Assembly (NCBI RefSeq): GCF_900101045.1
Contig: NZ_FNFN01000001.1
Coordinates: 1 to 64,000, forward strand
From: Nocardioides sp. YR527
Lineage (GTDB): Bacteria; Actinomycetota; Actinomycetes; Propionibacteriales; Nocardioidaceae
DNA: 64,000 bases
Direction of reading: 5' to 3'
Position 1 is the first letter of the stretch, and the number at the start of each line of letters is the position of its first letter. Positions 1,679 to 18,217 of the stretch are shown here, one piece after another. The position numbers were made by a program, and so were the translations under genes. The notes under the pieces are model-generated. The model searched no databases. It was not told the origin of the DNA and saw nothing but the letters and a program-made list of their open reading frames with translations.

Positions 1679-1690
1679 CGCCGGCGCTAG
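1675..1690. terminator. Palindrome joining two convergent stop codons
   Basis: The perfect 16-base palindrome ctagcgccggcgctag contains the TAG stop of the YCII gene and, on the other strand, the TAG stop of the ABC ATPase gene, which end 9 bases apart. It could fold as a compact bidirectional terminator. No U-tract is seen. Confidence 0.45.
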
Positions 1691-4427: not shown

Positions 4428-5599
4428 CGCTCGAACACCAGCGTCGCGGGCCAGGCACCGATCGGAGGAGGGGGTGCGCTCGTGGGGATGATCTGGCCGA
4501 GGACACGGGGGCCGATCGCTCCGGTGCAGCTGGGCACGTTGCCGGCGAGACTGTGGACGCTCGCCCATCCGATGAGGGCGAAGGCGATCGCCTCCTTGGT
4601 GTCGGACGGTACGCCGAGGGCGTCGCTGGTGATGACCCGCACGCCGGGGAGGAGGTCGCCGAGCCGTCGCATCAGCACCGGGTTCCGTACGCCGCCACCC
4701 GAAGCGACCAGCACCTCGACGCCCGCCTGGGCCACCGCCTGGGACACGGAGACCGCGGTGACCTCGGTCAGCGTCGCGACCAGGTCGGGAAGAGAGGGGT
4801 CCAGTCCGGTCCGCGCGAGCCCGGCCCGGACGTAGTCGAGGTTGAACAGCTCCTTGCCGGTGCTCTTCGGCGCAGGCTGCCCGAAGAAGGGCGAGTCGAG
4901 CAGGTCGGCGAGCAGCACCGGGATCACGGTGCCGGCGGCGGCCAGCTCGCCGTCGCGGTCGAAGCCGGCCTCTCCGGGCGCGTCGGTGACCACGGCGTCG
5001 ATGAGGGCGTTGGCGGGCCCGATGTCCCAGGCGACCGGATCCGCGGCTGGTCGGCGCACGGTGATGTTGGCGATACCGCCGAGGTTGAGCGCGGCCGCGA
5101 CGGTCCCGTCCTCGGCCAGCGGCGCCAGCATCCGGACGTCCAGGAGGGGCACCAGCGGTGCGCCCTGCCCGCCGGCGGCGATATCGGCGGAGCGTACGTC
5201 CGAGACGACCGTGGCACCGGTGGCCTCGGCGATCCAGGCGGGCTGCCCGATCTGAAGCGTGCCGAGCGCACGGCCGCTCTCGACCCAGTGATAGGCGGTC
5301 TGACCGTGCGTGCAGACGACGTCGACCGAGCCGGCCTCCTCGACGGCCTGCCGTGCGGCTGCGGCGAAGGCCTGTCCGATCCTCGTGTCGAGCTCGCACA
5401 CGACGTCGAAACCGACCGGCGCGGGAGGCAGGGCTTCGATGAGCCGCTCTCGAAGATCCGGCGGGTAGGGCACCGAGCTGTGGTGAACGATCCGTGCGCG
5501 CAGCACGTCCGCGTCGATGTCGACGTCGAAGGCGAAGTCGACGATCGCGACGTCGATCCCGTCGTGGGAGGTCCCGGAGATCATGCCGAGCACGCGCAT
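4424..5599 (-). CDS. anmK: Anhydro-N-acetylmuramic acid kinase
   Basis: A 391-residue AnmK of the ASKHA kinase superfamily. It opens the 1,6-anhydro ring of anhMurNAc and phosphorylates it with ATP to MurNAc-6-phosphate, the substrate of MurQ. The N-terminal signature GMISGTSHDGIDVA (residues 5-18) is the family phosphate-binding motif. Further support is NLGGIANITVR and VASGGGVRNPVLMRRL near the C-terminus. Length matches the family. It follows murQ with a TGATG junction (1-base overlap) in the operon, an expected pairing for cell-wall recycling or scavenging. Confidence 0.95.
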   Translation of the reverse strand: MRVLGMISGTSHDGIDVAIVDFAFDVDIDADVLRARIVHHSSVPYPPDLRERLIEALPPAPVGFDVVCELDTRIGQAFAAAARQAVEEAGSVDVVCTHGQTAYHWVESGRALGTLQIGQPAWIAEATGATVVSDVRSADIAAGGQGAPLVPLLDVRMLAPLAEDGTVAAALNLGGIANITVRRPAADPVAWDIGPANALIDAVVTDAPGEAGFDRDGELAAAGTVIPVLLADLLDSPFFGQPAPKSTGKELFNLDYVRAGLARTGLDPSLPDLVATLTEVTAVSVSQAVAQAGVEVLVASGGGVRNPVLMRRLGDLLPGVRVITSDALGVPSDTKEAIAFALIGWASVHSLAGNVPSCTGAIGPRVLGQIIPTSAPPPPIGAWPATLVFER

Positions 5600-6513
5600 C
5601 AGCCACGCTCCTCGATAACGGTCCGCAGCCGGCCATCGGCCAGCTCGAGCGCCTGTGACGCCTCGGCGGGGGAGAGGCCGGTGAGGATCGTCGCGATCGC
5701 CAGCTTGGCATGCCAGCCCGAGTCGCCGAGCGCCCGGACCGCGGTCGCGTCGTCGGCGCCGGTGGCCTCGGTGACCATCCGGATGGCCCGATGCCGAAGC
5801 TTGGCGTTGTTGGCCCGCATGTCGACCATCAGCGAGCCGTACGTCTTCCCGAGCTGCACCATGGTGGCGGTGGAGATCATGTTGAGCACCATCTTGGTGG
5901 CGGTGCCGGCGCCGAGCCGGGTCGATCCGGAGACGACCTCGGGGCCGACCGGCACCTCGATGCCGTGGGTGGCGACGCGCGCCAGTGGCGTGCCGAGATT
6001 GCAGGCGAGCCCCACGGTGAGCGCGCCGTTGTCGGCGGCGTGGGCGAGGGCGCCGAGGACATAGGGCGTACGTCCGCTCGAGGCGATCCCGACGACCGTG
6101 TCGAGCGGCCCGACGCCGAGAGCGGCCAGGTCGGCCGCCCCGGCCTCGGCATCGTCCTCGATCCCTTCGGCCGCACTGAAGAGCGCCGCCGGGCCGCCGG
6201 CGATGACGCCGACGACGACGTCGTCGAGCCCGAAGGTGGGCGGCACCTCCGAGGCGTCGAGCACCCCGAGCCGGCCCGAGGTGCCCGCGCCCACGTAGAT
6301 CAGCCGCCCGCCGTCCCGCATCCGGGCGGTCGCCGCGGTCACGGCCGCCGCGATCGAGGGCAGTGCGGAGCGTACGGCGGTGGCGACCGTCGCGTCGCGC
6401 TCGTTCATCAACGCGACCAGGTCGGAGGCGGAGAGCTGGTCGATCTCCGGTCCGCCGGATCTGGACGCCTCGGTGGTGAGTGCGTCGAGCATCGACTCGT
6501 CCTCTGGATTCAC
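5599..6513 (-). CDS. murQ: N-acetylmuramic acid 6-phosphate etherase
   Basis: A 304-residue SIS-domain lyase that splits the D-lactyl ether of MurNAc-6-phosphate, giving GlcNAc-6-phosphate and D-lactate. The sugar-phosphate loop GAGTSGRLG lies at residues 75-83, followed by DASEVPPTFG with Glu89 as the expected catalytic acid. I take the GTG at 6513: gaggagg lies 7 bases upstream and the start overlaps the stop of the permease gene (GTGA). A longer in-frame extension upstream has no family similarity. MurQ plus AnmK commit imported MurNAc or anhMurNAc to amino-sugar metabolism. Confidence 0.95.
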   Translation of the reverse strand: MNPEDESMLDALTTEASRSGGPEIDQLSASDLVALMNERDATVATAVRSALPSIAAAVTAATARMRDGGRLIYVGAGTSGRLGVLDASEVPPTFGLDDVVVGVIAGGPAALFSAAEGIEDDAEAGAADLAALGVGPLDTVVGIASSGRTPYVLGALAHAADNGALTVGLACNLGTPLARVATHGIEVPVGPEVVSGSTRLGAGTATKMVLNMISTATMVQLGKTYGSLMVDMRANNAKLRHRAIRMVTEATGADDATAVRALGDSGWHAKLAIATILTGLSPAEASQALELADGRLRTVIEERG

Positions 6514-7394
6514 TTGCTGCCTCCTCGTGGGTCGAGTGCGGCCCGGAGTCCGTCCCCGAGCAGGTTCAGCCCGACCACCGCGAGGATCAGCGCGGCGCCG
6601 GGGGCGTACAGCATCCACGGAGCGACGCTCGTCAGCGTCTGCGCTTCGTAGATCATGCCGCCGAGCGACGCCGCCGGGGGAGGGGTGCCGAAGCCGAGGA
6701 AGCTGAGGGCCGCCTCGGTGAGGATCGCCCAGGACAGTGACAGGGTGACCTGGACGACCAGGATGCCGAGGATGTTGGGAAGCACGTGCACGAAGAGGGT
6801 GGAGAGCCGAGTGCGGCCGACGGCCGTCGCGGCGAGCACGTACTCGGCGTGGCGCAGCGTCAGGACGGGGCCGCGGGCGACCCGCGCGAAGATCGGGAGG
6901 TAGACCACGGCGATCGCGATCGCCACCGTCAGCCAGCTGCGTCGCAGGGTGGCGGCGAGAGCGAGGGCGAGCAGCAGCGAGGGGAAGGCGAACAGCACGT
7001 TGGTGATCACGCCGACAGCCCGGTCGAGGATTCCCTGGTAGTAGCCGGCGAGGATCCCGAGGAGCACCCCGCCGAGCGCCGCCACGGTCACCGAGACGAT
7101 CGCGACCCGCAGCGAGTTGGCCAGGCCGGAGCAGACCCGCGCGAAGATGTCACGGCCGAACTGGTCGGTGCCGAACCAATGGGTCCCGCTGGGACCCTGC
7201 AGGGCCTCCGAGACCTCCTGCGCGGCCGGATCCGGTCCGAACCCGGCCGCAGACAGGAGCGCGAGAGTCGTCACGATCGCCATCAGAACGAGGCCGACGA
7301 TCCCGCCCGGCGTACGAAATGCCTGACGCCACCGGCCGGAGGCCCGGGTCGTGGGGACCTCCGGCACCTCGTGCATGTCTGCTGCCGCGCTCAT
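6510..7394 (-). CDS. ABC transporter permease, DppC type
   Basis: A 294-residue inner-membrane permease of the peptide/nickel ABC class. It has a single N-terminal helix (about residues 29-50), a periplasmic-type loop with the HWFGTDQFGRD motif typical of DppC/OppC, then five helices with the EAA-like cytoplasmic loop. It pairs with the DppB-type permease upstream, whose stop overlaps this start by 4 bases. In this operon it should carry muropeptides or MurNAc-peptides; substrate is inferred from murQ and anmK downstream. Confidence 0.9.
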   Translation of the reverse strand: MSAAADMHEVPEVPTTRASGRWRQAFRTPGGIVGLVLMAIVTTLALLSAAGFGPDPAAQEVSEALQGPSGTHWFGTDQFGRDIFARVCSGLANSLRVAIVSVTVAALGGVLLGILAGYYQGILDRAVGVITNVLFAFPSLLLALALAATLRRSWLTVAIAIAVVYLPIFARVARGPVLTLRHAEYVLAATAVGRTRLSTLFVHVLPNILGILVVQVTLSLSWAILTEAALSFLGFGTPPPAASLGGMIYEAQTLTSVAPWMLYAPGAALILAVVGLNLLGDGLRAALDPRGGSK

Positions 7395-8380
7395 TGAACT
7401 CGCACCCTCGGGTCGACCAGCCGGTAGATGACGTCGGTGAGGAGGTTGACCAGGACGAACATCACCGCGATCACCAGCACCGTCGACTGGACCACGGCGT
7501 ACTCCTTCTGTTCGAGGCCGAGCAGCACCTGGCGCCCGATGCCGGGGATCGCGAAGATCTGCTCGACCACCAGTGCTCCGCCGAGGAGGAAGCCGAACTG
7601 CAGGCCGCTCATCGTCACCACCGGGATCAGGGCGTTGCGGAGGATGTGGCGCACCTGCAGCCGCCGGGCCGGCACGCCTTTGGCGCGAGCGGTTCGGATG
7701 AAGTCCTCCGAACGGACGGCGAGGATCGCGGCGCGGGTCGTCTGCAGGATCGGCGGGGCGATGCTGATCCCGAGGACGAGCGCGGGGAGCAGCATCTGCT
7801 GCAGGTTGAGGAGGGGATCCTCGCCGAGCGTGCGGTAGCCCTCGCCGTTGGGATACCAGCCGATCGTGTTCACCAGCCAGCTCGACACCGCGGCGGCGAG
7901 CAGGAACGACGGCACCGACAGCGCGACCAGGCTGGTCAGCTGGCTGATCTGGTCGCGCGCACGCCCGGGGCGGCTCGCCGCCAGCATTCCGCCGGGTACG
8001 CCGAGGACGAGGCCGATCCCGATGGCGAGCACGGCCAGCTCGATGGTGTTCGGCAGGGACTGGGCGGTCATCGACAGCACACTCAGGTGTGAGGTCGCCG
8101 AGACCCCGAGGTTGCCGGTGAGCACGCCGCCGAGCCAGCCCAGGTACTGGGACAGGAGCGGCTCGTTGAGACCGTAGTAGGCCTCCAGTGCCTGAAGCTG
8201 CTCCGGGGAGAGGTCACCTGCAGCCGTGCCGTACGCCGCGGTGATCTGGTCCCCCGGGACCACCCGCAGCAGCACGAAGGTGAGTATCGAGACCCCGATG
8301 AGCGTCACCGCCGCCTCCCCGGCACGCCGTGCCACCGGGTGACGCCCGAGAGCGCCGGCCCGGTGGGTCAGGCTCGACAC
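7391..8380 (-). CDS. ABC transporter permease, DppB type
   Basis: A 329-residue permease of the peptide/nickel ABC class. A first helix at about residues 22-43 (TLIGVSILTFVLLRVVPGD) is followed by the long external loop with YYGLNEPLLSQYL and by five more helices with the EAA motif region around ARAKGVP. The GTG at 8380 is chosen because it lies 5 bases after the stop of the binding-protein gene and gives the usual family N-terminus. Upstream in-frame sequence is only the shadow of the binding protein. Works with the DppC-type permease and the fused ATPase. Confidence 0.88.
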   Translation of the reverse strand: MSSLTHRAGALGRHPVARRAGEAAVTLIGVSILTFVLLRVVPGDQITAAYGTAAGDLSPEQLQALEAYYGLNEPLLSQYLGWLGGVLTGNLGVSATSHLSVLSMTAQSLPNTIELAVLAIGIGLVLGVPGGMLAASRPGRARDQISQLTSLVALSVPSFLLAAAVSSWLVNTIGWYPNGEGYRTLGEDPLLNLQQMLLPALVLGISIAPPILQTTRAAILAVRSEDFIRTARAKGVPARRLQVRHILRNALIPVVTMSGLQFGFLLGGALVVEQIFAIPGIGRQVLLGLEQKEYAVVQSTVLVIAVMFVLVNLLTDVIYRLVDPRVRVQ

Positions 8381-8385
8381 CGCGC

Positions 8386-9936
8386 TCAGGAGACCGACGC
8401 CTTCCACAGCGTCGCGATCGAGGCGTCTGCGCGCTCCTCCAGGCCCTCGACGCGCTTGTTGGACACGACGTACATCTCCGGGGTGAACAACCACACCCAG
8501 GCCGCCTGGTCGACCAGCTGTTGGGAGATCTCCGCGTAGATCGGCTTGCGGGCGGCGGTGTCGGTCGTGGCGATCCCCTCGGCGAAGAGCTTGTCGAGCT
8601 CCGGCGAGCTGTAGCCGGCGACCTTGTTGAAGCTGCCCGCCTTGGTGAAGTAGCGGCTGTACATCGTGTTCGGGTCCGAGCTGCCGCCGTTCATCGCGAT
8701 CGCGGCATCGAAGTCGGCCGCCAGCCAGCGCTCGACGTAGGCGTTGGAATCCAGCGCCTCGACATCGACCTTGATCCCGACCTTGCCGAGCTGGGCCTGG
8801 AGGTTCTGTGCCTCGTCCACCGCGGTGGAGTAGAGACCTTGGGAGGTCATCAGTTTCAGCGTGAACCCGTTCGGCTTGCCCGCCTTGGCCAGGTAGTCCT
8901 TCGCCTTGTCGAGGTCCTGCTCGGGGCACGGTTGCGCCTCCGGGTCGGAGCGGTACTCCGGCGAGGTGATCGGCCCGCTCGGCTTACCCGATCCCAGAGC
9001 CGCGGAGTCGATCACGTCCTGGCGGGAGACGGCGCACTGGATCGCGAGCCGGGCGTTGGGGTCCGACAGCGTCGGTGAGGTCGCCCGCAGCTGCAGCACG
9101 TGGTAGGACAGCGAGTCGACCGTCATGCTCGTGGTCTCGGCCGAGGTCGCCGTCTTCGCGGTCACCGGGTTGTCGAAGATCGCCACGTCCACCGAGCCGG
9201 TCTTCAGCGAGGACACCATCGACTGCTCGTCGGGGATGATACGGAACTCGACCGTGGCCGCACCGGGTTCGCCCGCGAAGTAGTCGGCGTTGCGCGTGAG
9301 CGTGATCGACTCGTTCGGGGTGCGGCTCTTGAACTGGTACGGCCCCGACCCGACGGGCTTGGACTCCAGGCTCTTCGGGTCCACGTCGGAGGGCACGATC
9401 GCGGTGTTCACCCCGGTGAGTCCGGACACGAAGGAGGCGTCGGGCTGCTTCAGGGTCACCACGACCGTCTGCGGGTCAGGTGCCTCGATGCCGGCCACCG
9501 AGGCGAAGTACGACGCCGAGCTCGCGCTCGAGGCAGGGTCGATGATCTTCTCGTAGGTGTACTTCACATCGGCGGAGTCGAGGTCGGAGCCGTCCCCGAA
9601 GGTGACGCCGTCCTGGATGGTGAAGGTGTAGGTCTTCCCGTCCTCCGAGATTTCCGGCAGGTCCGCGAGCCCGGCCTCCGGGACACCGTCGGCGTCGGTG
9701 TTGATCAGGGGGCTGTAGATCTGCGACAGCACCTGGATCGACTGGGTCGAGGTCGCGGTCCAGGGGACCATCTGTGCCGGGTCGGCAGAGATCCCGAAGA
9801 CGAGGGTGCCGTTGGCGTCAGCGCTGTCTTCGCCGCCGCTGCCGCAGCCGGCGAGACCGGCTGCCAGCAAGCTGGCCGCGAGGGCGGTGGCGACCGTTGC
9901 GTGGGTGCGTTGTCCGTGTCGTCGCTGCGTGCTCAC
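8386..9936 (-). CDS. ABC transporter substrate-binding lipoprotein (peptide/nickel family)
   Basis: A 516-residue extracellular solute-binding protein, family 5 (DppA/OppA/MppA-like). A lipoprotein signal peptide ends in LAGC with the lipidated Cys31. The mature part begins after a Gly/Ser linker and contains the family pattern LADLPEISEDGKTYTFTI. The GTG at 9936 has aggagga upstream and gives a normal signal peptide, unlike the longer frame that starts further out. As first gene of the operon, divergent from the MurR-type regulator, it should bind MurNAc-containing peptides or anhydro-muropeptides, comparable to MppA. Ligand identity is inference. Confidence 0.88.
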   Translation of the reverse strand: MSTQRRHGQRTHATVATALAASLLAAGLAGCGSGGEDSADANGTLVFGISADPAQMVPWTATSTQSIQVLSQIYSPLINTDADGVPEAGLADLPEISEDGKTYTFTIQDGVTFGDGSDLDSADVKYTYEKIIDPASSASSASYFASVAGIEAPDPQTVVVTLKQPDASFVSGLTGVNTAIVPSDVDPKSLESKPVGSGPYQFKSRTPNESITLTRNADYFAGEPGAATVEFRIIPDEQSMVSSLKTGSVDVAIFDNPVTAKTATSAETTSMTVDSLSYHVLQLRATSPTLSDPNARLAIQCAVSRQDVIDSAALGSGKPSGPITSPEYRSDPEAQPCPEQDLDKAKDYLAKAGKPNGFTLKLMTSQGLYSTAVDEAQNLQAQLGKVGIKVDVEALDSNAYVERWLAADFDAAIAMNGGSSDPNTMYSRYFTKAGSFNKVAGYSSPELDKLFAEGIATTDTAARKPIYAEISQQLVDQAAWVWLFTPEMYVVSNKRVEGLEERADASIATLWKASVS

Positions 9937-10043
9937 GGATCCTCCTAGGGTGGGGCCACGAGGTCGGGCTCTTGCCTGCAGTGGCGTGTGCCCGCGGATC
10001 TGACGACCGTATGACAAAATCTTTCCGCCGTGAACCACTCGTG

Positions 10044-10056
10044 GTCAATTATTGAC
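10044..10056. promoter_or_regulatory. Candidate MurR operator
   Basis: The perfect inverted repeat gtcaat-t-attgac lies in the 152-base gap between the divergent transport operon and the MurR/RpiR-type regulator gene. It overlaps a ttgacc hexamer reading toward the transport operon that could serve as a -35 element. Position and symmetry fit an operator that switches both directions; binding is not shown by sequence alone. Confidence 0.5.
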
Positions 10057-10088
10057 AACTTGTGGTGGTCGAGCCGAACGAGGAGACG

Positions 10089-10967
10089 ATGAGCGAAGAC
10101 ATCCTGGTGCGCCTGAGACGGGCCCTGCCCGGTCTGCGGCCGAGCGAGCGTCGTCTGGCAGAGGCGGCGCTGGCGGATCCGGGCGCGATCGCCGCACTGA
10201 CCATCACCGAGCTCGCGAGTCGGCACGAATCCTCGACCGCCACCGTCACCAGGCTGTGTCGCAGCCTCGGCTTCACCGGCTACTCGGCGTTCAGGCTGGC
10301 ACTGGCTCGGGCCGGCGCGAACGAGGCCGGCCGCCGGATCGAGTTCGGCGTCTCCGACGGGGACATCGACCCGGCCGACACGACCCGAGACGTCGTACGC
10401 AAGCTCGCCTATCAGGAGGCGCGAGCCATCGAGGAGACCGCTGACAGGCTCGACATCGACGAGCTCGACCGGGTCGTCGCGGCGATCACGACCGCTTCGG
10501 TCCTCGACGCCTACGGATCGGCCTCCAGCGGCCTGGCCGCGCAGGACCTCCAGCAGAAGCTGCGTCGTATCGGCTACCAGGTCAACGCCTGGGCCGACGC
10601 CCACCTCGCCCTCACCAGCGCCGCGGTGCTCCCCGCCGATGCCGTAGCCATCGCGTTCTCCCACTCCGGGGAGACCGAGGAGGCCATTTCCGCCCTGCGC
10701 ACCGCCGCCGCCCGGGGCGCCTTCACCGTCGCCGTCACCAACTTCCCCGACTCCCCGTTGGCCGAGCTCGCCGATGCCACACTCGCCACCGTCTCCCGCG
10801 AGACCCGGTTCCGCTACGGCGCGATGTCCAGCCGGATGGCCCAGCTCGTGATCGTCGACGCGATCTTCCTCGGCGTTGCCCGCGAGAATCCGGACGATGT
10901 CACTGCCGCGCTCGAGGCGACGCTGGACGCGGTCTCTGTCCGGCGCATCCACCCGCCCAGAGGCTGA
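10089..10967 (+). CDS. MurR/RpiR family transcriptional regulator
   Basis: A 292-residue cytoplasmic regulator with an N-terminal RpiR-type helix-turn-helix (about residues 1-78, core IAALTITELASRHESSTATVTRLCRSLGFTGY within it) and a C-terminal SIS sugar-phosphate domain (about 115-270, AIAFSHSGETEEAISAL). By analogy with E. coli MurR it would sense MurNAc-6-phosphate and repress the divergent MurNAc operon. The ATG at 10089 is preceded by cgaggagac; a GTG 27 bases earlier is less well placed. The gene stands alone on its strand and ends 9 bases from the convergent Lrp-type gene. Confidence 0.88.
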   Translation: MSEDILVRLRRALPGLRPSERRLAEAALADPGAIAALTITELASRHESSTATVTRLCRSLGFTGYSAFRLALARAGANEAGRRIEFGVSDGDIDPADTTRDVVRKLAYQEARAIEETADRLDIDELDRVVAAITTASVLDAYGSASSGLAAQDLQQKLRRIGYQVNAWADAHLALTSAAVLPADAVAIAFSHSGETEEAISALRTAAARGAFTVAVTNFPDSPLAELADATLATVSRETRFRYGAMSSRMAQLVIVDAIFLGVARENPDDVTAALEATLDAVSVRRIHPPRG

Positions 10968-10976
10968 GCCTCCGTA

Positions 10977-11915
10977 TCAGGCGCCGCCGAGGTGCAGGGA
11001 GGCGTACGTCTCCTTGACGAAGCGGAGGTGGCTCCAGGTCTCCGCCTCGCGGACGCCGGTGAGCTCGCGGATGTGGTCGAGGACGCCGACGAGGTCGCCG
11101 GAGGTGGCGGTGCTGACCGTGAGCAGGGCGTCGTAGCGACCGAGGGTCCGGGCCACGAAGGTCACCGACGGGAGCTCGGCGAGCTGCGCGGCGATCGGGC
11201 GGTGGGCGGCGCCGTCGAGACGGAGCCCGACTCCGGTGGCCGTACGCCGCTCCTGACCCGAGTGGCGCACGACGGCGCCCACCCGGACGATGTTCCCGTC
11301 GAGCAGGCGCACCACCCGGCGACGAGTGCCGGCGGGGGAGAGGCCGACGCTCGCGGCCAGGTCGACGTAGGAGGCACGGCCGTTCGCCTGCAGTGCGCGC
11401 AGCAGGGCGTAGTCGGTGTCGTCGAGCGAGCCGGCCGCCGGGGCCGGACCGACCGGGGCGGCGACGTCGCGGATGACCTCGGTGTAGAGCAGGGTCTCGG
11501 TGGTGACGATGCCGTCGATCGTCCGCACCTCGGCGAGGGCGTCGTCGATCCGGCCGATGTCCTTCGCCCGCAGCTCCAGCACCAGGGCGTGGTGGCCGCT
11601 GGTCATCGAGACCAGGGTGGTGTCCTCGCGCGCTGCGGCCGCCTGTGCGACGTGGGTCGCGGAGCCATTCACGGTGACCGAGACGTGGGCGAGCACGTCA
11701 TGGCCGAGGACGGCCGGGTGGACGACGCCCCGGACGTCGATGTGCCCCTCGTTCAGCAGCCGCTGGACCCGGGTGGCCGCCGCTGACCGGGACAGGCCGA
11801 CCTGGGCGGCGATCTCGCGGTGGGTGAGACGACCGTCCTTCTCGAGCAGAACGAGGATCGCCTCATCGGTCCGGTCGGGGATGCCGGGGACGTCCGGAGA
11901 AAATTGGTTCGACAT
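10977..11915 (-). CDS. Lrp/AsnC family regulator, duplicated-domain form
   Basis: A 312-residue regulator about twice the length of classical Lrp. It carries two winged helix-turn-helix units, one at about residues 13-60 (ILVLLEKDGRLTHREIAAQV) and one at about 165-210 (YALLRALQANGRASYVDLAA), each followed by a RAM-type ligand-binding region. Such double Lrp proteins commonly control amino-acid or amine catabolism in actinobacteria. It is divergent from the NTF2-NCS1-ureohydrolase-ThDP-symporter operon, which is its likely target. ATG at 11915; only a weak ggag lies upstream. Confidence 0.87.
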   Translation of the reverse strand: MSNQFSPDVPGIPDRTDEAILVLLEKDGRLTHREIAAQVGLSRSAAATRVQRLLNEGHIDVRGVVHPAVLGHDVLAHVSVTVNGSATHVAQAAAAREDTTLVSMTSGHHALVLELRAKDIGRIDDALAEVRTIDGIVTTETLLYTEVIRDVAAPVGPAPAAGSLDDTDYALLRALQANGRASYVDLAASVGLSPAGTRRRVVRLLDGNIVRVGAVVRHSGQERRTATGVGLRLDGAAHRPIAAQLAELPSVTFVARTLGRYDALLTVSTATSGDLVGVLDHIRELTGVREAETWSHLRFVKETYASLHLGGA

Positions 11916-11972
11916 TTTTTGAGCGCGTCTCCAAGGTCGGATCGATCCTCATGGGCGGGGATCTGGTGCGAT

Positions 11973-12003
11973 TATGACGGATGGTCCGCGCTTCGCCGTC
12001 ATA
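11973..12003. promoter_or_regulatory. Inverted repeat in the Lrp / catabolic operon gap
   Basis: The 8-base arms tatgacgg (11973-11980) and ccgtcata (11996-12003) are perfect reverse complements separated by 15 bases, the kind of dyad Lrp-family proteins recognise. They lie about 60 bases upstream of the predicted promoter of the divergent operon. Candidate operator by position and symmetry only. Confidence 0.45.
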
Positions 12004-12039
12004 TCGACAGCTATTACGGTCAGGTTAAGAACGAAACGA

Positions 12040-12069
12040 TTGCCGCGGTGCTCGGGATGCTCTTAGAGT
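12040..12069 (+). promoter_or_regulatory. Predicted promoter of the guanidino-type operon
   Basis: A ttgccg hexamer (12040-12045) and a tagagt hexamer (12064-12069) are separated by 18 bases, giving a plausible housekeeping promoter with a leader of about 33 bases before the GTG at 12109. The only comparable pair in the gap on this strand. Confidence 0.4.
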
Positions 12070-12108
12070 GACGCAGATCTCGGCCGACCCACAGACCCAG
12101 GAGGCCCG

Positions 12109-12534
12109 GTGTCCACGATCACCGCCCCATCAGCCACGCTGACCGAGTCGCAGGTCCACGAGGCCGCCGACCGGCTCGTCGCGGCCTTCGCCGCGACCGA
12201 CACCGCGGCCTACTTCGCGTGCTTCGCCGCCGAGGCCAGCTTCGTCTTCCACACCGAGCCGCGTCGGCTCGATGACCGCGCTGCCTACCATCGACTCTGG
12301 GCCGCCTGGGTCGCCGAGGGCTGGCGGGTCGAGTCCTGCCGGAGCAGCGCCCGTCTCGTCCAGATCCACGGCGAGACCGCGGTCTTCAGCCACGACGTCC
12401 TCACCACCACCTCGACGGGCGGACCCGCCGAGACCACCCTGGAGCGCGAGACGATCGTCTTCCGGCTCATCGACGGCGACCTTCTCGCCGTGCACGAGCA
12501 CCTGTCCGCGCGGCCGAGCGAGGACCAGCGATGA
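12109..12534 (+). CDS. NTF2-like / SnoaL-type small protein
   Basis: A 141-residue single-domain protein of the nuclear transport factor 2-like superfamily. Helices at about residues 14-45 (VHEAADRLVAAFAATDTAAY) are followed by the sheet segments FVFHTEPRRL, RVESCRSSARLVQIHG, AVFSHDVLTT and TIVFRLIDGDLLAVHEHLS typical of SnoaL / DUF4440 proteins. Start is the GTG at 12109, with gaggccc upstream. It is first gene of the operon and overlaps the NCS1 permease start by 4 bases. A catalytic or substrate-binding accessory role is possible; no specific activity can be read from the sequence. Confidence 0.78.
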   Translation: MSTITAPSATLTESQVHEAADRLVAAFAATDTAAYFACFAAEASFVFHTEPRRLDDRAAYHRLWAAWVAEGWRVESCRSSARLVQIHGETAVFSHDVLTTTSTGGPAETTLERETIVFRLIDGDLLAVHEHLSARPSEDQR

Positions 12535-14084
12535 CTACGCAGCCCCAGCCGCCCAAGGTCACCGAGGTCGAGCAGCACGGCGTCGAGCCGATCCCCGACC
12601 CCGAGCGCAGCGCCCGGCCGCTCGACCTGTTCCGGCTCACCTTCGGCGGCGCCAACACGATCGCCACCGTGGTGCTCGGCAGCTTCCCGATCCTGTTCGG
12701 GCTCTCCTTCGCGCACGGCCTGATGGCCACGCTGCTCGGGCTGCTCCTCGGCGCCGTCGTCCTCGCCCCGATGGCCCTGTTCGGCCCGCGCAACGGCACC
12801 AGCAACTCGGTCAGCTCCTCGGCCCACCTCGGTGTGCACGGCCGGATCGTCGGCTCGTTCCTCTCCCTGCTCACCGCGCTCGCGTTCTTCTCGATATCGG
12901 TGTGGAGCTCGGGCGACGTGCTCGTCGGCGGCGCCAACCGCGCGGTCGGGCTGCCGGAGAACGACCTGACCCTGGCGCTGGCGTACGGCCTGTTCGCCGT
13001 GCTCGTCCTGGTCGTGTGCATCTACGGCTTCCGGTTCATGCTGCTGGTCAACAAGATCGCCGTGATCGCCGCGACCGTGCTCTTCCTGCTCGGCATCGTC
13101 GCTTTCGCCGGCGACTTCGACCCCGGTTACGCCGGTGTGTTCGGCTCCGGTTCGGAGGCGTTCGGCGAGCCCGGCTTCTGGGCGGCGTTCGTCGGCTCCG
13201 CGCTGATCGTGATGTCCAACCCGGTCAGCTTCGGCGCTTTCCTGGGCGACTGGGCCCGCTACATCCCCCGCGAGACCCCGGGCCGCTCCTCGATGGCCGC
13301 CGCCTTCCTGGCACAGATCGCCACCCTCGTACCGTTCTGCTTCGGCCTGGTCACCATGACGATCATCGCCACCCGCGAACCCGAGATCTTCGCCTCCGGT
13401 GCGTACGCCTCCGGCCTGCTCGCGATCGCGCCCGGCTGGTACTTCGTGCCGGTCGCCCTGATCGCCCTGATCGGTGGCATGTCGACCGGCACCACCGCGC
13501 TCTACGGCACCGGCCTGGACTTCTCCAGCGTCTTCCCGCGCTTCAACCGCGTCCAGTCCACGGTGCTGATCGGCGTCTTCGCGATCGGGGTCATCTTCAT
13601 CGGCCGCTTCGTCTTCGACGTCGTCTCCAGCATCTCGACCTTCGCCGTCCTCATCGTCAGCTGCACCGTCCCCTGGATGATGGTGATGATGGTCGGCTGG
13701 TACGTCCGGCGGGGCTGGTACGACTCCGATGCTCTCCAGGTCTTCAATCGCCGCCAGCGCGGTGGCCGCTACTGGTTCGCCCACGGCTGGAACTGGCGCG
13801 GCCTGGCCGCCTGGCTGGTCGCGGCCGCCGTCGCGCTCACCTTCGTGAACCTGCCCGGCCAGTTCGTCGGTCCGGCCGCCTCGCTGATCCCCGGCGGGGT
13901 CGACATCTCGATCCCGCTCGGGATGGGCCTGGCCGCGCTGCTCTACCTGGGACTGCTCTTCGCCTTCCCCGAGCCGCGCGACGCCTACGGGCCCGACGGC
14001 GCCCGTCTGGTCCCGACCGGACCGGCCGCGAACACCCCCGTCACCTCGGTAGAGGGGCCTGCGCCCGCTGCCGTCGTCGGCTGA
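12531..14084 (+). CDS. NCS1 family purine/cytosine-type permease
   Basis: A 517-residue membrane transporter of the nucleobase-cation symporter-1 family (cytosine permease-like). After a hydrophilic N-terminus with RPLDLFRLTFGGANT (family entry motif) about twelve hydrophobic segments follow. The FGPRNGTSNSVSSSAHLGVHGR region and LGDWARYIP near residue 240 are typical of the family. It likely takes up a small nitrogenous compound by proton or sodium coupling. Next to a ureohydrolase, a guanidino compound or allantoin-like amide is more plausible than cytosine; this is inference. Start overlaps the preceding stop by 4 bases. Confidence 0.87.
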   Translation: MTTQPQPPKVTEVEQHGVEPIPDPERSARPLDLFRLTFGGANTIATVVLGSFPILFGLSFAHGLMATLLGLLLGAVVLAPMALFGPRNGTSNSVSSSAHLGVHGRIVGSFLSLLTALAFFSISVWSSGDVLVGGANRAVGLPENDLTLALAYGLFAVLVLVVCIYGFRFMLLVNKIAVIAATVLFLLGIVAFAGDFDPGYAGVFGSGSEAFGEPGFWAAFVGSALIVMSNPVSFGAFLGDWARYIPRETPGRSSMAAAFLAQIATLVPFCFGLVTMTIIATREPEIFASGAYASGLLAIAPGWYFVPVALIALIGGMSTGTTALYGTGLDFSSVFPRFNRVQSTVLIGVFAIGVIFIGRFVFDVVSSISTFAVLIVSCTVPWMMVMMVGWYVRRGWYDSDALQVFNRRQRGGRYWFAHGWNWRGLAAWLVAAAVALTFVNLPGQFVGPAASLIPGGVDISIPLGMGLAALLYLGLLFAFPEPRDAYGPDGARLVPTGPAANTPVTSVEGPAPAAVVG

Positions 14085-14123
14085 TCCACCTCGCCACACC
14101 GCACCACCCAAGGAGAACCACCC

Positions 14124-15071
14124 ATGCCCATCGGGCCCCTCGACGCCTCCAAGAACCCCCGCTACGCCGGCTTCGCGACATTCGCGCGGCTGCCCCGCCT
14201 CGACGAGGTGGAGCACGCCGACATCGCGGTCGTCGGGGTCCCGTTCGACACCGGCGTCTCCTACCGGCCGGGTGCCCGCTTCGGCCCATCGCACGTGCGG
14301 GAGTCGTCGCGCCTGCTGCGTCCCTACAACCCGGCGCTGGACGTCTCGCCGTTCGCCTCGGCCCAGGTGGTCGACGCGGGGGACATCGCGGCCAACCCGT
14401 TCCACATCAACGAGGCGCTCGACACCGTCCAGGCCTCGGCGCTCGAGCTCACCGCAGGCGGAACCCGGCTGGTGACGATCGGTGGCGACCACACCATCGC
14501 CCTGCCGCTGCTGCGGGCCGCCGCCGAGCGCCACGGCCCGGTCGCGCTGGTGCACTTCGACGCCCACCTGGACACCTGGGACACCTACTTCGGGGCCGAG
14601 TACACCCACGGCACCCCGTTCCGGCGGGCGGTGGAGGAGGGCATCCTCGACACCGAGGCGCTGTGCCACGTCGGCACCCGGGGCCCCCTCTACGGCAAGA
14701 AGGACCTCGAGGACGACCGCCGCTTCGGCTTCGGGATCGTCACCTCCTCCGACGTCTTCCGCCAGGGCGTCGACGAGGTGGTGGAGAAGATCAGGAAGCG
14801 CGTCGGCAACCGGCCCGTCTACGTCTCGGTCGACATCGACGTCCTCGACCCGGCGCACGCCCCGGGCACCGGCACCCCCGAGGCCGGCGGGCTCACCTCC
14901 CGTGAACTGCTCGAGATCCTCCGCGGCTTCGTCGGCCTGAACCTGATCGGCGCCGACGTGGTCGAGGTCGCCCCGGCGTACGACCACGCCGAGCTGACCG
15001 GGGTCGCCGCCTCGCACGTGGCCTACGACCTGGTCTCGCTGCTCGCGATGCGCCACTCGGGTCAGGCATGA
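14124..15071 (+). CDS. Ureohydrolase (agmatinase / guanidino-acid hydrolase family)
   Basis: A 315-residue Mn-dependent ureohydrolase that releases urea from a guanidino compound. All metal ligands are present: H123 in GGDHT, D146, H148 and D150 in FDAHLDT, D237 and D239 in [19 protein letters not shown]. The family is usually annotated agmatinase (speB), but homologues include guanidinobutyrase and guanidinopropionase, so I give no symbol. The neighbouring ThDP-dependent enzyme resembles the decarboxylase of the 2-ketoarginine route, which would make 4-guanidinobutyrate the substrate. ATG preceded by aaggag; overlaps the next start by 4 bases. Confidence 0.88.
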
Positions 15072-16693
15072 CGGCACGCAACGGCGGTGACGTCACCGTC
15101 GAGAGCCTGACCGCCCGCGGCGCGACCCACGTGTTCGGCATCCCGGGCCAGCACGCACTCGGTCTCTTCGACGCCATCCGCCGCAGCGACCTGACCTTCG
15201 TCTCCTCCCGAGTCGAGAACAACTCGGTCTTCGCGGCCGACGGCTACGCGCGGACGACCGGCCAGGTCGGGGTGGTGTTCTGCTCCACCGGACCGGGAGC
15301 GCTCACCGCGCTGGGCGCGCTCCAGGAGGCGTACGCCGCCTGCGTCCCGATCCTGATGATCACCAGCCAGATCCCGCGCGACGGGCTCGGGGGTGCCCGC
15401 AAGGGCTACCTGCACCAGCTCGACGACCAGCAGGCCAGCGCCCGCAACGTCACCAAGTCCACCGCCGTCGTCCGTGACGCGGCCGCCATCCCGGGCGTCC
15501 TCGCCGATGCGTGGGCGACCGCCCAGGAGGCGCCGGCCGGTCCGGTCTGGGTCGAGATCCCGCAGGACGTGCTCCTGGAGGAGGTCACCGTGCCGCCGGT
15601 GACCTTGCTCGAGGCAGAGGTGCCCGCACCGCGGCGGCCCCGGCCGGAGGCCAACGCCGAGGCGGCCCGCCTGCTCGCAGCGGCCGAGCGCCCGGTGATC
15701 CTCGCCGGAGGAGGCGTACGCCGCTCCGCCGGAGCCCCGCAGGCGCTGGTCGCCCTCGCCGAGCTCCTCGACGCACCGGTGGTCTCGACCTCCGGGGGCA
15801 ACGGCTCGATCCCGCTCGCGCACCCGCTGAGCGCGGCCGCGTGGATCGAGGACCGGTACACCACCGAACTGCTCGACGATGCGGATGTCCTGCTCGCGAT
15901 CGGCACCTCGTTCGGCGAGGTGACCAGCAACTACGGCACCTTCGCCCCGCGCGGACGGGTGATCCAGGTGGACGCCGAGGCTCGCGTCCTCGGCTCCAAC
16001 CACGGCGTGCTCGGCGTCCACGCCGATGCCGCCGCGGCTCTCACCGATCTGGCCGCGGCGCTTCCCGGTGCCGGCTCCGAGCCGGGCCCGAGGCGATCCG
16101 GTGCCCGTGTCGCCCAGGACCTGCGTGCCCGGGTCCAGGCCCGGCTCGACGCCCAGGACCTCGCCGCCGAGCAGCGGCTGCTCGCCGACCTGCGCGCGGC
16201 GGTCCCCGACGACACCGACACCTTCTGGGACATGACCATCGCGGCGTACTGGGCCTGGTCGGCCTGGGACCCGCGCACGGGCGGCTTCCACACCGCACAG
16301 GCGTCCGGAGGTCTCGGCCTCGCCCTTCCCGCTGCGATCGGAGCCGCGGTCGGGACCGGTCGGCGTACGTTCGCGGTCACCGGAGACGGCGGCGCGATGT
16401 ACTCCATCGCGGAGCTCGCCACTGCCCGCCAGCACGATGCCGAGGTCACCTGGCTCGTGATCGACGACGGCGGCTACGGGATCCTGCGCGAGTACATGAC
16501 CGGGGCCTTCGGTGCCGCCACCGCCACCGAGCTCGCCCGGCCGGACTTCGTCCGGCTCGCCGAGGCGTTCGGCATCCCTGTCCGAGCCGCCACCTCGGAG
16601 ACCGTCGGCGAGATCGTCGCCGACACCTTCGCCGCCAGCGGGCCCGCCGTCGTGGTCCTTCCGACGACCCTCCGCATGTTCGCCGCCACCTGA
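15068..16693 (+). CDS. ThDP-dependent enzyme, acetolactate-synthase-like; possible 2-ketoarginine decarboxylase
   Basis: A 541-residue member of the acetohydroxyacid synthase / 2-ketoacid decarboxylase superfamily. The Pyr domain has Glu50 in [14 protein letters not shown], the conserved acid that activates ThDP. The central Rossmann domain holds [14 protein letters not shown]. The PP domain has GDG at residues 439-441, but the usual NN that closes the ThDP motif reads DDGG (IDDGGYG). No regulatory subunit gene is near, arguing against a biosynthetic acetolactate synthase. Coupled to the ureohydrolase gene (ATGA), it may decarboxylate 2-ketoarginine like AruI of pseudomonads. Function is inference, family is firm. 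Confidence 0.83.
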
Positions 16694-16720
16694 CCGCCCA
16701 CCTCGATCTGGAGCCCCCAC

Positions 16721-18217
16721 ATGGATCTCACCATCATCGTCATCTACCTCGCCGCCATGGTCGCCTTCGGCTGGTGGGGCAAGAGCCGGACCCAGGACAG
16801 CTCCGACTTCCTCGTCGCCGGCCGCCGGCTGGGTCCGGTGCTCTACACCGGCACCATGGCCGCAGTCGTACTCGGCGGTGCCTCGACCGTCGGCGGCGTC
16901 GCGCTCGGCTACGAGTACGGCATCTCCGGGGCCTGGCTGGTCGCGGCGATCGCGTTCGGCGTCCTGGCGCTGAGCCTGTTCTTCGCCGGCAGGATCCAGC
17001 GGCTGCGGATCTTCACCGTGGCCCAGATGCTGGCGCTGCGCTACGGCGTCGGAGCGACCGCGGCCTCTGGCGTGGTCATGATGGCCTACACCCTGATGCT
17101 CACCGTCACCTCCACGATGGCGTACGCGACCGTGTTCAACGTCCTCTTCGGCACCGACCGGGTCGTCTCCATCCTGATCGGCGGCGTCATCGTGGTGATC
17201 TACTCCAGCATCGGCGGGATGTGGTCGATCACCCTGACCGACATGGTGCAGTTCGCGCTGAAGACCATCGGTGTCTTCTTCCTGCTCCTGCCCTTCACCT
17301 GGAACCACGCCGGCGGCCTGGACGGGATCAAGGCCCGTGCCGCGGACTCGGTCTTCGACCTCGGTGCGATCGGCACGGGGACCATCATCACCTACGTCGT
17401 CGTCTACACCCTGGGCATGCTGATCGGGCAGGACATCTGGCAGCGGGTCTTCACCGCCCGTTCGCCGCAGGTGGCGCGCTGGGGCGGCACCGCAGCCGGT
17501 GTCTACTGTCTGCTCTACGGTGTGGCCGGCGCCCTGATCGGTGCCGCGGCCTCCACCTTCATCACCGTCGACAACCGCGACGACGCCTACGCCACCATCG
17601 CCGAGTCGATCCTCCCTGTCGGCATCAGCGGGCTGGTGCTCGCCGCCGCGGTCGCCGCGATGATGTCGACCGCCTCGGGTGCGCTGATCGCGACGGCGAC
17701 CGTGGCGCGCACGGATGTGCAGCCGCTGCTCGCCCGACTCGTCGGACGCACCCCGGCGCTGGTCCAGGACGAGGCGGAGAACCCCGAGCACGACGTGCTC
17801 GCCAACCGGATCTACGTCGTCGTGATCGGCCTCGTCGTCGTCGTCATCTCGTCCCTTCTCGACGATGTCGTCTCGGGCCTGACGATCGCCTACGACATCC
17901 TCGTCGGCGGTCTGCTGGTCCCGATCCTCGGTGGCTTCCTGTGGCGCCGCGGGACCGGCGCCGGCGCGGTGACGGCGATGGTCGCCGGCACCGTCGCCAC
18001 GCTGGGGACCATGGCGATCGTCGGCGACGTGCTCGCCAACGAGCCGGTCTACGCAGGCCTCGCCGCCAGCGCCGTGGCGTACGTCGTCGTCAGCCTGCTC
18101 ACCCGCCCGACCGACCCCGCGGTGATGCGGGAGTGGACCGATCGGCTCGCAGGTCGAGAGAGCTCGGACGGATCCGGCGTCGCGGCCGTTCTGGCCACCG
18201 AGGAGCGACCTATCTGA
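16721..18217 (+). CDS. Sodium/solute symporter (SSS family)
   Basis: A 498-residue SSS (SLC5-like) transporter with about 13 hydrophobic segments starting at residue 3. Family features are FLVAGRRLGPVLYTGTMAA near the N-terminus, GGASTVGGVALGYEYG, and the sodium-site region IGGMWSITLTDMVQF. It uses the sodium gradient to import a small organic solute. Last gene of the operon, 27 bases after the ThDP enzyme gene, so the operon carries two different importers (NCS1 and SSS). Substrate unknown; an amino acid or guanidino compound fits the context. Confidence 0.88.
   Translation: MDLTIIVIYLAAMVAFGWWGKSRTQDSSDFLVAGRRLGPVLYTGTMAAVVLGGASTVGGVALGYEYGISGAWLVAAIAFGVLALSLFFAGRIQRLRIFTVAQMLALRYGVGATAASGVVMMAYTLMLTVTSTMAYATVFNVLFGTDRVVSILIGGVIVVIYSSIGGMWSITLTDMVQFALKTIGVFFLLLPFTWNHAGGLDGIKARAADSVFDLGAIGTGTIITYVVVYTLGMLIGQDIWQRVFTARSPQVARWGGTAAGVYCLLYGVAGALIGAAASTFITVDNRDDAYATIAESILPVGISGLVLAAAVAAMMSTASGALIATATVARTDVQPLLARLVGRTPALVQDEAENPEHDVLANRIYVVVIGLVVVVISSLLDDVVSGLTIAYDILVGGLLVPILGGFLWRRGTGAGAVTAMVAGTVATLGTMAIVGDVLANEPVYAGLAASAVAYVVVSLLTRPTDPAVMREWTDRLAGRESSDGSGVAAVLATEERPI

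Follow-up and report, generated by a model that had tools for sequence, protein, structure and literature searches.

The window, i.e., the whole analysed stretch of 64,000 nucleotides from the soil actinobacterium Nocardioides sp. YR527, contains five genes on the plus strand (12109-18217) which would appear to form an operon for the use of arginine-derived guanidino acids as nitrogen and carbon source, with GABA and urea as end products. This reading is considered rather probable; it is supported, at the level of sequence, by homology to a gene cluster of Pseudomonas aeruginosa, by an arginine residue (R66) of the ureohydrolase and by aldehyde dehydrogenase genes in the clusters of relatives. 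The substrates of the two importers, of the NCS1 and SSS families, would be 4-guanidinobutyrate, 2-ketoarginine (or a compound closely related to it) or both. Judging from context, the ThDP-dependent enzyme would convert 2-ketoarginine (5-guanidino-2-oxopentanoate) to 4-guanidinobutanal, from which an aldehyde dehydrogenase, encoded in or beside the cluster of some relatives, would form 4-guanidinobutyrate; the ureohydrolase would then release GABA and urea. These products could be taken by the GABA transaminase (631 bits, above the cut-off) and the urease of the genome. Neither an aldehyde dehydrogenase nor an aminotransferase is among the genes of the operon in the window; elsewhere in the genome, an aldehyde dehydrogenase gene is found which is 72% identical to that of N. 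albus.

All six genes listed in the initial annotation were found in their places. The minus strand (10977-11915) encodes a divergently transcribed Lrp/AsnC-type regulator, in which Pfam finds two HTH stretches and two for ligand binding, and which probably controls the operon; the divergent intergenic region of 193 bp (11916-12108) presumably holds promoter and operator. On the plus strand follow the genes for an NTF2-like (SnoaL_3) protein (12109-12534; Pfam, blastp), the NCS1-family importer (Transp_cyt_pur), predicted for guanidino acids (12531-14084; Pfam, blastp), the ureohydrolase (Arginase family), predicted to be a guanidino-acid hydrolase of the guanidinobutyrase type (14124-15071; PDB searches, residue counts, tree), a ThDP-dependent enzyme which resembles 2-keto-acid decarboxylases and belongs to a separate actinobacterial clade (15068-16693; NCBIfam, tree, alignment) and the SSS-family sodium:solute symporter (16721-18217; Pfam, blastp). 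Four-base overlaps (ATGA) link the NTF2-like to the NCS1 gene and the ureohydrolase to the ThDP gene, and gaps of 39 bp (NCS1 to ureohydrolase) and 27 bp (ThDP to SSS) separate the others. The ThDP gene is followed by genes for SSS, for a lipase and for a TetR regulator, so that no small subunit of acetolactate synthase adjoins it among the neighbouring genes examined, in agreement with the initial annotation, which had described the enzyme as lacking a regulatory subunit.

All five families are present in the gbu cluster of P. aeruginosa, with identities (blastp) of 53% for the NTF2-like protein, 67% for NCS1, 44% for the ureohydrolase (GbuA), 35% for the ThDP enzyme and 51% for SSS; the PAO1 tags, gbuA and PA1416-PA1421, were given to the cluster genes by position. 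In both organisms the NTF2 gene is located directly 5' of the NCS1 gene. The presence of two importers in one operon, which had been singled out as notable, loses weight, because the P. aeruginosa cluster also has both and the arrangement is thus not unique. Differences concern gene order, the regulator (LysR in the gbu cluster versus Lrp), an extra gene for a GlcD-like FAD oxidoreductase in the gbu cluster, and the ThDP enzymes, which belong to different clades. In a mexT deletion of PAO1, gbuA and each of PA1416-PA1420 are lower (PMC12607905). By sequence homology, the operon is a putative counterpart of this little-studied Pseudomonas cluster, with another decarboxylase and another regulator.

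The ureohydrolase is a member of its superfamily (PF00491, Arginase family: 322 bits, cut-off 22), and the six metal ligands H123, D146, H148, D150, D237 and D239, already described as complete in the initial annotation, are conserved throughout the 70 orthologue rows. The best score in PDB searches was obtained with the guanidinobutyrase GbuA (3nio, 283 bits), followed by proclavaminate amidinohydrolase (270 bits), guanidinopropionase (262 bits) and agmatinases (234 and 212 bits); GbuA and GpuA (3nip), both among the best matches, share metal ligands and a carboxylate-side Arg with the window enzyme. This residue, R66 (Arg in 70/70 orthologue rows), is in the column of GbuA R72, which faces the substrate carboxylate (PMC9772407). 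The same column holds W68 of E. coli agmatinase, so that the E. coli-type Trp, placed at the amine side of the substrate and contributed by the neighbouring subunit (PMC8125230), is replaced. Close to the substrate, Y155 (70/70 rows) corresponds to guanidinopropionase Y157 and not to GbuA M161; because of this loop Tyr, which is as in GpuA, the enzyme is named here a guanidino-acid hydrolase rather than GbuA proper. The missing Met is not decisive, since the guanidinobutyrase of A. niger has Tyr at this position, too (PMC10833137).

The invariant Tyr could also point to a different guanidino acid as substrate, e.g., 3-guanidinopropionate, taurocyamine or a modified arginine, in which case the 2-keto acid used by the ThDP enzyme would either correspond to it or be unrelated. 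Human AGMAT, another member of this family, has a broad substrate range that includes taurocyamine, and no characterised member was found in the ThDP clade within the analysed set; however, the gene contexts of relatives converge on guanidinobutyrate and the A. niger enzyme shares the Tyr, and this explanation appears unlikely. A further point against the guanidinobutyrase assignment is the ureohydrolase of Paenarthrobacter, 57% identical and in the same clade, which has His at the R66 column; the tree comprised 18 rows, with the Nonomuraea row and one very distant paralogue from the same genome left out. A second ureohydrolase of the genome, on contig C4, adjoins GabT and an amine oxidase and has an Arg near the R66 column; it could be the guanidinobutyrase of the genome instead of the operon enzyme. 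Residues, relatives and gene contexts taken together nevertheless support the prediction that the operon ureohydrolase hydrolyses 4-guanidinobutyrate.

Agmatinase models were exceeded by the window protein, with 235 bits for TIGR01230 (cut-off 174) and 321 bits for PRK02190 (cut-off 302), and its C-terminal YDxxExT resembles that of agmatinases. An agmatinase together with an acetolactate synthase-like enzyme, serving polyamine or branched-chain metabolism, would fit these data. But these models hardly separate agmatinases from guanidinobutyrases, since P. aeruginosa GbuA passes TIGR01230 (212 bits) and nearly reaches PRK02190 (297 bits, just under the cut-off). R66 stands in place of the agmatine-side residue, acetolactate synthases fall outside the ThDP clade, and the genome has a separate one on contig C13; the combination is regarded as very improbable. 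Acetolactate synthase as such was rejected for the ThDP protein, which in the tree is outside the IlvB clade and has no adjoining small subunit. A biosynthetic pair of clavam type was likewise rejected. Streptomyces clavuligerus also combines a ThDP enzyme, carboxyethylarginine synthase, with a ureohydrolase, proclavaminate amidinohydrolase, which is 46% identical and the second-best solved match. Its ThDP enzyme, however, is only 28% identical and groups on a long branch with acetolactate synthases, its ureohydrolase has His at the R66 column, and no beta-lactam synthetase-like gene is present in the operon, which makes such a function extremely improbable.

The ThDP protein carries all three TPP domains (Pfam). 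With PRK07524, the model for "5-guanidino-2-oxopentanoate decarboxylase", it scored 339 bits, below the curated cut-off of 500. One clade joining its group with PRK07524 was not supported (p-AU 0.0102, for a group named after inspection of the tree, which has long branches). The nearest clade, in a tree which leaves out AruI of PAO1 (PA4977), holds a PRK07064 protein. ThDP decarboxylases acting on a guanidino or amino 2-keto acid are likewise part of the arginine-to-GABA routes AruH/AruI and, in Sinorhizobium meliloti, AspC/IlvB1 (PMC7268258), AruI being likened here by description; the AruH/AruI route has an aminotransferase, which the operon does not. An aminotransferase-ThDP pair of Rhizobium belongs to PRK08266, the cut-off of which (571 bits) was missed by the window protein (345 bits). 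At E 1e-30, 25 plasmid records match the ThDP protein; leaving aside the top three, 18 of the remaining 22 carry a feature name, i.e., "5-guanidino-2-oxopentanoate decarboxylase" (9), "thiamine pyrophosphate-dependent enzyme" (8) or acetolactate synthase (1); these are family names and not test results. The ureohydrolase of the pair is labelled "agmatinase" in the annotated plasmid records examined.

The enzyme would thus represent a separate actinobacterial clade, with 2-ketoarginine or 5-amino-2-oxopentanoate as substrate predicted from context. Of the earlier reading, the guanidino-acid operon is supported by the P. aeruginosa homology, R66 and the aldehyde dehydrogenases of relatives; the 2-ketoarginine step of the ThDP enzyme, which neither reaches the PRK07524 cut-off nor groups with the decarboxylase of that name, is suggested by context only.

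The order of the two reactions could be reversed: the ureohydrolase would act first, yielding 5-amino-2-oxopentanoate from 2-ketoarginine, and the ThDP enzyme would produce 4-aminobutanal, to be oxidised to GABA. The AruI-like IlvB1 of S. meliloti prefers 5-amino-2-oxopentanoate sevenfold, and the ureohydrolase SpeB2 accepts 5-guanidino-2-oxopentanoate besides 4-guanidinobutyraldehyde and 4-guanidinobutanoate (PMC7268258). R66 fits any carboxylate, and the aldehyde dehydrogenases of relatives score with succinate-semialdehyde and lower with aminobutyraldehyde dehydrogenase models, all below cut-off. Against this order, the nearest solved relative of the ureohydrolase is a guanidinobutyrase, and in Tsukamurella a same-clade ureohydrolase (66% identical) is found with a C-N hydrolase and a homologue of L-amino acid oxidase/monooxygenase, where 2-ketoarginine would be unexpected; this gene set could also yield guanidinobutyrate. 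The reversed sequence is judged to be rather unlikely.

Guanidinobutyrate as the intermediate, formed by decarboxylation and oxidation, is in keeping with the gene neighbourhoods of relatives, of which the best 80 of at least 489 matches were retained. In 75 of these 80 loci, the ureohydrolase gene is on the same strand as the ThDP gene and at a distance of 0-225 bp; in one more (L059) the adjoining ureohydrolase is cut by the contig end, giving 76/80, and therefore the grouping is beyond chance. A ThDP gene without a ureohydrolase nearby was found in four of the best 80 (L039, L049, L051, L068); about 480 kb separate the two genes in Embleya. Aldehyde dehydrogenase genes complete the clusters of Kineosphaera (SSS, ThDP, ureohydrolase, aldehyde dehydrogenase) and N. 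albus (ureohydrolase, ThDP, SSS, aldehyde dehydrogenase, with a four-base overlap); one more member of the genus (G025) has a gene of the same aldehyde dehydrogenase family 3.5 kb from the cluster. In Paraburkholderia the genes for ThDP enzyme, aldehyde dehydrogenase and ureohydrolase are consecutive, and in Shinella the order is ureohydrolase, ThDP, aldehyde dehydrogenase. Nine more of the best 80 loci contain other aldehyde dehydrogenases, of 30-41% identity and at a distance of over 4 kb from the ThDP gene; these, and a second one in L026, were set aside. Homologues above 120 bits were present in 56 of these 80 loci for SSS and in 19 for Lrp, and an XRE-cupin regulator is near the pair in 46 of 83 loci; conserved neighbours other than these and NCS1 resembled, on inspection, general Micrococcaceae synteny and were disregarded. 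A literature search on actinobacterial guanidinobutyrate yielded one matching publication, which deals with Streptomyces polyketides.

Both importers are recognised by their domains, NCS1 by Transp_cyt_pur (147 bits, cut-off 23.5) and SSS by SSF (91.6 bits, cut-off 22.8); the NCBIfam models ncs1 (67 versus 353 bits) and sss (109 versus 184 bits) were not reached. No substrate was assigned to PA1419, by position the NCS1 protein of the P. aeruginosa cluster, in a systematic nucleobase screen (PMC11633122); its counterpart in the window is predicted to carry guanidino acids. By description, the system MetT-MetCaCb for metformin uptake and hydrolysis (PMC13390362) likewise imports a guanidine compound by an NCS1 protein, encoded in a cluster with an enzyme of the ureohydrolase superfamily; substrate and enzyme are different. 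The NTF2-like protein recurs next to NCS1 or ureohydrolase genes, one examined context speaking against this. Its structure model (mean pLDDT 88) matched many NTF2-like folds, including CaMKII hubs, which are too generic to indicate a function, and a PHROGs search gave no match. As a tentative and rather doubtful extension, the NCS1 subfamily with PA1419 might be a dedicated importer of a natural guanidino acid, the ThDP clade a further, separately evolved clade of 2-ketoarginine decarboxylases, and the conserved NTF2-like protein a new dedicated component, for example with the guanidino keto acid or the aldehyde, in cyclic form, as substrate, or with a C4 acid bound in its pocket.

The widespread actinobacterial ureohydrolase-ThDP gene pair thereby obtains a testable function. 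For PA1419, left without a substrate by the screen (PMC11633122), a guanidino acid would be a candidate, and the NTF2-like protein would appear as a recurring partner of genes for guanidino compounds across phyla.

All six genes of the initial annotation were borne out at their places. The compact plus-strand run (12109-18217) has the order NTF2-like protein, NCS1 importer, ureohydrolase, ThDP enzyme and SSS importer, with ATGA overlaps at two of its four junctions and gaps of 39 and 27 bp at the others; 193 bp separate it from a minus-strand Lrp/AsnC regulator with tandem domains (10977-11915). Searches of open-licence literature gave no publication on this actinobacterial operon. Directly next to the operon, region 1687-10967 resembles a locus for recycling of cell wall muropeptides: it codes for AnmK (378 bits; anhydro-MurNAc kinase), a MurR/RpiR-family regulator, a protein that combines a SIS domain with a match of the glucokinase-regulator type, and an ABC importer of the oligopeptide type together with its binding protein.

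A Pseudomonas aeruginosa plasmid record showed a LysR gene divergent from speB, NTF2, "cytosine permease" (NCS1), SSS and a ThDP gene annotated as 5-guanidino-2-oxopentanoate decarboxylase, followed by genes for an FAD oxidoreductase, an MBL-fold protein and a PA1414-family protein. Counted upward from the latter, the cluster genes correspond to PA1415 to PA1421, and PA1421 is presumably gbuA. Identities (blastp) between the window and this cluster were 53% for NTF2, 67% for NCS1, 44% for the ureohydrolase, 35% for the ThDP enzyme and 51% for SSS. According to a report on strain PAO1, gbuA and PA1416-PA1420 were all lower in a mexT deletion (PMC12607905), as would be expected of one transcription unit. 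Since P. aeruginosa has homologues of all five genes and these respond jointly, the gene combination represents an existing kind of cluster; the two importers, which had been considered notable, are both already present there. The operon is the actinobacterial form of the gbu cluster known from P. aeruginosa, from which it differs by its own ThDP clade and the Lrp regulator. An extra gene of the P. aeruginosa cluster (locus L112, 14079-15461) encodes a GlcD-like FAD oxidoreductase (FAD_binding_4 plus FAD-oxidase_C), which, speculatively, could furnish 2-ketoarginine from a 2-hydroxy acid, e.g., argininic acid.

Relatives of the NTF2-like protein occurred in 23 plasmid records, and the contexts of five were inspected: an NTF2-NCS1 pair was found in P. 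aeruginosa, Klebsiella and Tsukamurella, and NTF2 with a ureohydrolase in Rhizobium; the Shinella context contained neither NCS1 nor ureohydrolase, but a divergent polyamine ABC transporter. A C-terminal HEHLS motif was common to all seven aligned proteins. The conjugative Klebsiella pneumoniae plasmid (L150, 7564-17398) carries NTF2, NCS1, an aldehyde dehydrogenase, an amino-acid ABC importer, speB, an MFS protein and LysR, i.e., a cluster of the guanidino-acid type on a mobile element. In Arthrobacter plasmid NicSoilB11-1 (L114, 1-18485), ThDP, MarR, MFS and ABC genes are present twice, in opposite orientation and with identical protein accessions, as an inverted duplication flanking SSS, cupin and speB genes.

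Compared with solved structures, the ureohydrolase scored highest with guanidinobutyrase (GbuA, 3nio; 283 bits), followed by proclavaminate amidinohydrolase (270), guanidinopropionase (262) and two agmatinases (234 and 212). Its R66 shares a column with GbuA R72 and Escherichia coli agmatinase W68 (residues counted along the alignments). R72 of the adjacent GbuA subunit is described as a cap over the active site that could contact the carboxylate, and the related human enzyme as active on guanidino acids and inactive on agmatine (PMC9772407); W68 was placed at the amine side of agmatine (PMC8125230). Arginine was found at R66 in all 70 orthologue rows, which were derived from 83 loci by ORF calls and clustering and of which at least one is repeated (N. 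luteus, entered twice); a Paenarthrobacter enzyme of the same clade, 57% identical, has His. Y155, also present in 70 of 70 rows, matches Y157 of guanidinopropionase GpuA, not M161 of GbuA; since Aspergillus niger guanidinobutyrase likewise has Tyr there (PMC10833137), this residue does not settle the chain length of the substrate. An 18-row tree grouped the enzyme with actinobacterial proteins, including those of Tsukamurella, Embleya, Kineosphaera and Paenarthrobacter (99/98), with GbuA outside and most deeper forks weak. The enzyme exceeded the cut-offs of both agmatinase models; P. aeruginosa GbuA passed one and narrowly failed the other (297 of 302).

For the ThDP enzyme, the best of 53 NCBIfam models were PRK08266 (345 bits; cut-off 571) and PRK07524, the 5-guanidino-2-oxopentanoate decarboxylase model (339 bits; cut-off 500); it was the best PRK07524 match of four in its own genome. 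In a 35-row tree its clade of 13 actinobacterial rows (100/100) joined, at 95/96, two other relatives and the PRK07064-type paralogue L106 of the same genome, and did not join PRK07524. Holding the clade together with PRK07524 was rejected (p-AU 0.0102), less strongly so with the single PRK08266 row (p-AU 0.0305); the groups were chosen with the tree already in view, and it contains long branches. A PRK08266 protein of Rhizobium adjoins an aminotransferase and an Lrp gene, which suggests an AruH/AruI-like setting. Because the enzyme falls below both cut-offs and outside the PRK07524 clade, its role is assigned by context. Of the initial proposal that the operon handles 4-guanidinobutyrate and 2-ketoarginine, the part concerning guanidino acids is sound and 2-ketoarginine is plausible. 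The reversed order, with the ureohydrolase acting first on 2-ketoarginine and the ThDP enzyme afterwards on 5-amino-2-oxopentanoate, was considered because Sinorhizobium meliloti IlvB1, similar to AruI, showed a sevenfold preference for 5-amino-2-oxopentanoate, and the ureohydrolase SpeB2 also acted on 5-guanidino-2-oxopentanoate (PMC7268258); we regard it as improbable.

Guanidino-acid import is our best guess for NCS1, on four grounds. All 13 putative NCS1 and NCS2 transporters of P. aeruginosa were deleted and each was tested singly on 10 nucleobases; PA1419, the counterpart of the window protein, had no substrate assigned among these, and a hint of xanthine uptake was dismissed by the authors, since a clear growth benefit was absent (PMC11633122). 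MetT, also an NCS1 protein, carries metformin, and its homologues cluster with the hydrolase genes (PMC13390362). Relatives of the window's NCS1 were found in 13 plasmid records (E 1e-80), 11 with identities of 58.7-69.3% before a drop to 43.9%. A ureohydrolase lay within 8 kb in four of six inspected NCS1 contexts (P. aeruginosa, Klebsiella, Caballeronia, Nonomuraea), and none was detected in 7-8 kb around NCS1 in S. chartreusis (tblastn) and Tsukamurella plasmid 14 (annotation). The putative role of SSS is read solely from its gene company.

Gene neighbourhoods of relatives favour guanidinobutyrate. In Kineosphaera, genes for SSS (37-45% identity), ThDP enzyme, ureohydrolase and aldehyde dehydrogenase stand consecutively; in N. 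albus the run of ureohydrolase, ThDP and SSS genes ends with an overlapping aldehyde dehydrogenase gene, whose product is 68% identical to that of Kineosphaera, and in genome G025 a 70% relative lies 3.5 kb off on the opposite strand. The order is ThDP, aldehyde dehydrogenase, ureohydrolase in Paraburkholderia, and ureohydrolase, ThDP, aldehyde dehydrogenase in Shinella, with D-amino acid dehydrogenase and racemase genes farther downstream. In Tsukamurella, a 66% identical ureohydrolase accompanies an amino acid permease, a C-N hydrolase and an L-amino acid oxidase/monooxygenase homologue (677 bits to 3we0), which reads as an arginine monooxygenase route. No aldehyde dehydrogenase is present within the window's operon; contig C15 of the same genome (6.19 Mb) has a gene 72% identical to that of N. 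albus, and GABA transaminase and urease are also encoded. Contig C4 (L141, 5853-12694) carries another cluster of the guanidino/polyamine kind, in which a further ureohydrolase is accompanied by GabT, a flavin amine oxidase, a dehydrogenase of the succinate-semialdehyde type and a LysR-like gene; this cluster may serve an agmatine or putrescine route. The PDB matches of this ureohydrolase do not single out one activity (putative agmatinases at 197 and 193 bits, guanidinobutyrase at 190), and an Arg lies close to the R66 column, so that the enzyme could alternatively hydrolyse guanidino acids.

Among 58 genomes searched (37 of Nocardioides, the own included), the ThDP gene was patchy in the genus, with at least 58% identity in only four (own, G011, G015, G025) and a best further match of 37%. 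Genome contigs were scanned with an alignment of four orthologues, and the analysis used the best 80 of at least 489 relatives, an uneven sample of the family consisting of its most similar members; all 80 were Actinobacteria by record title, the nearest named ones by ThDP protein being Nocardioides luteus (92%) and N. albus (91%). A same-strand ureohydrolase (>200 bits) lay 0-225 bp from the ThDP gene in 75 of these loci, upstream in 74 and downstream in one; in a 76th (L059) it was truncated by the contig end. SSS was present in 56 of the 80 (25 same strand, 31 opposite), Lrp in 19 and NCS1 in 14 (all three >120 bits), and NTF2 in five (>60 bits), all with NCS1. The core therefore consists of ureohydrolase and ThDP enzyme, often with SSS, and NCS1 and NTF2 form a variable module. 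In Embleya, a distance of about 480 kb separates the ureohydrolase gene from the ThDP gene on the same replicon. Four of the best 80 loci, L039, L049, L051 and L068, had no ureohydrolase near the ThDP gene, and L049 and L051 kept SSS despite this; these four actinobacterial loci are promising places in which to seek a different function.
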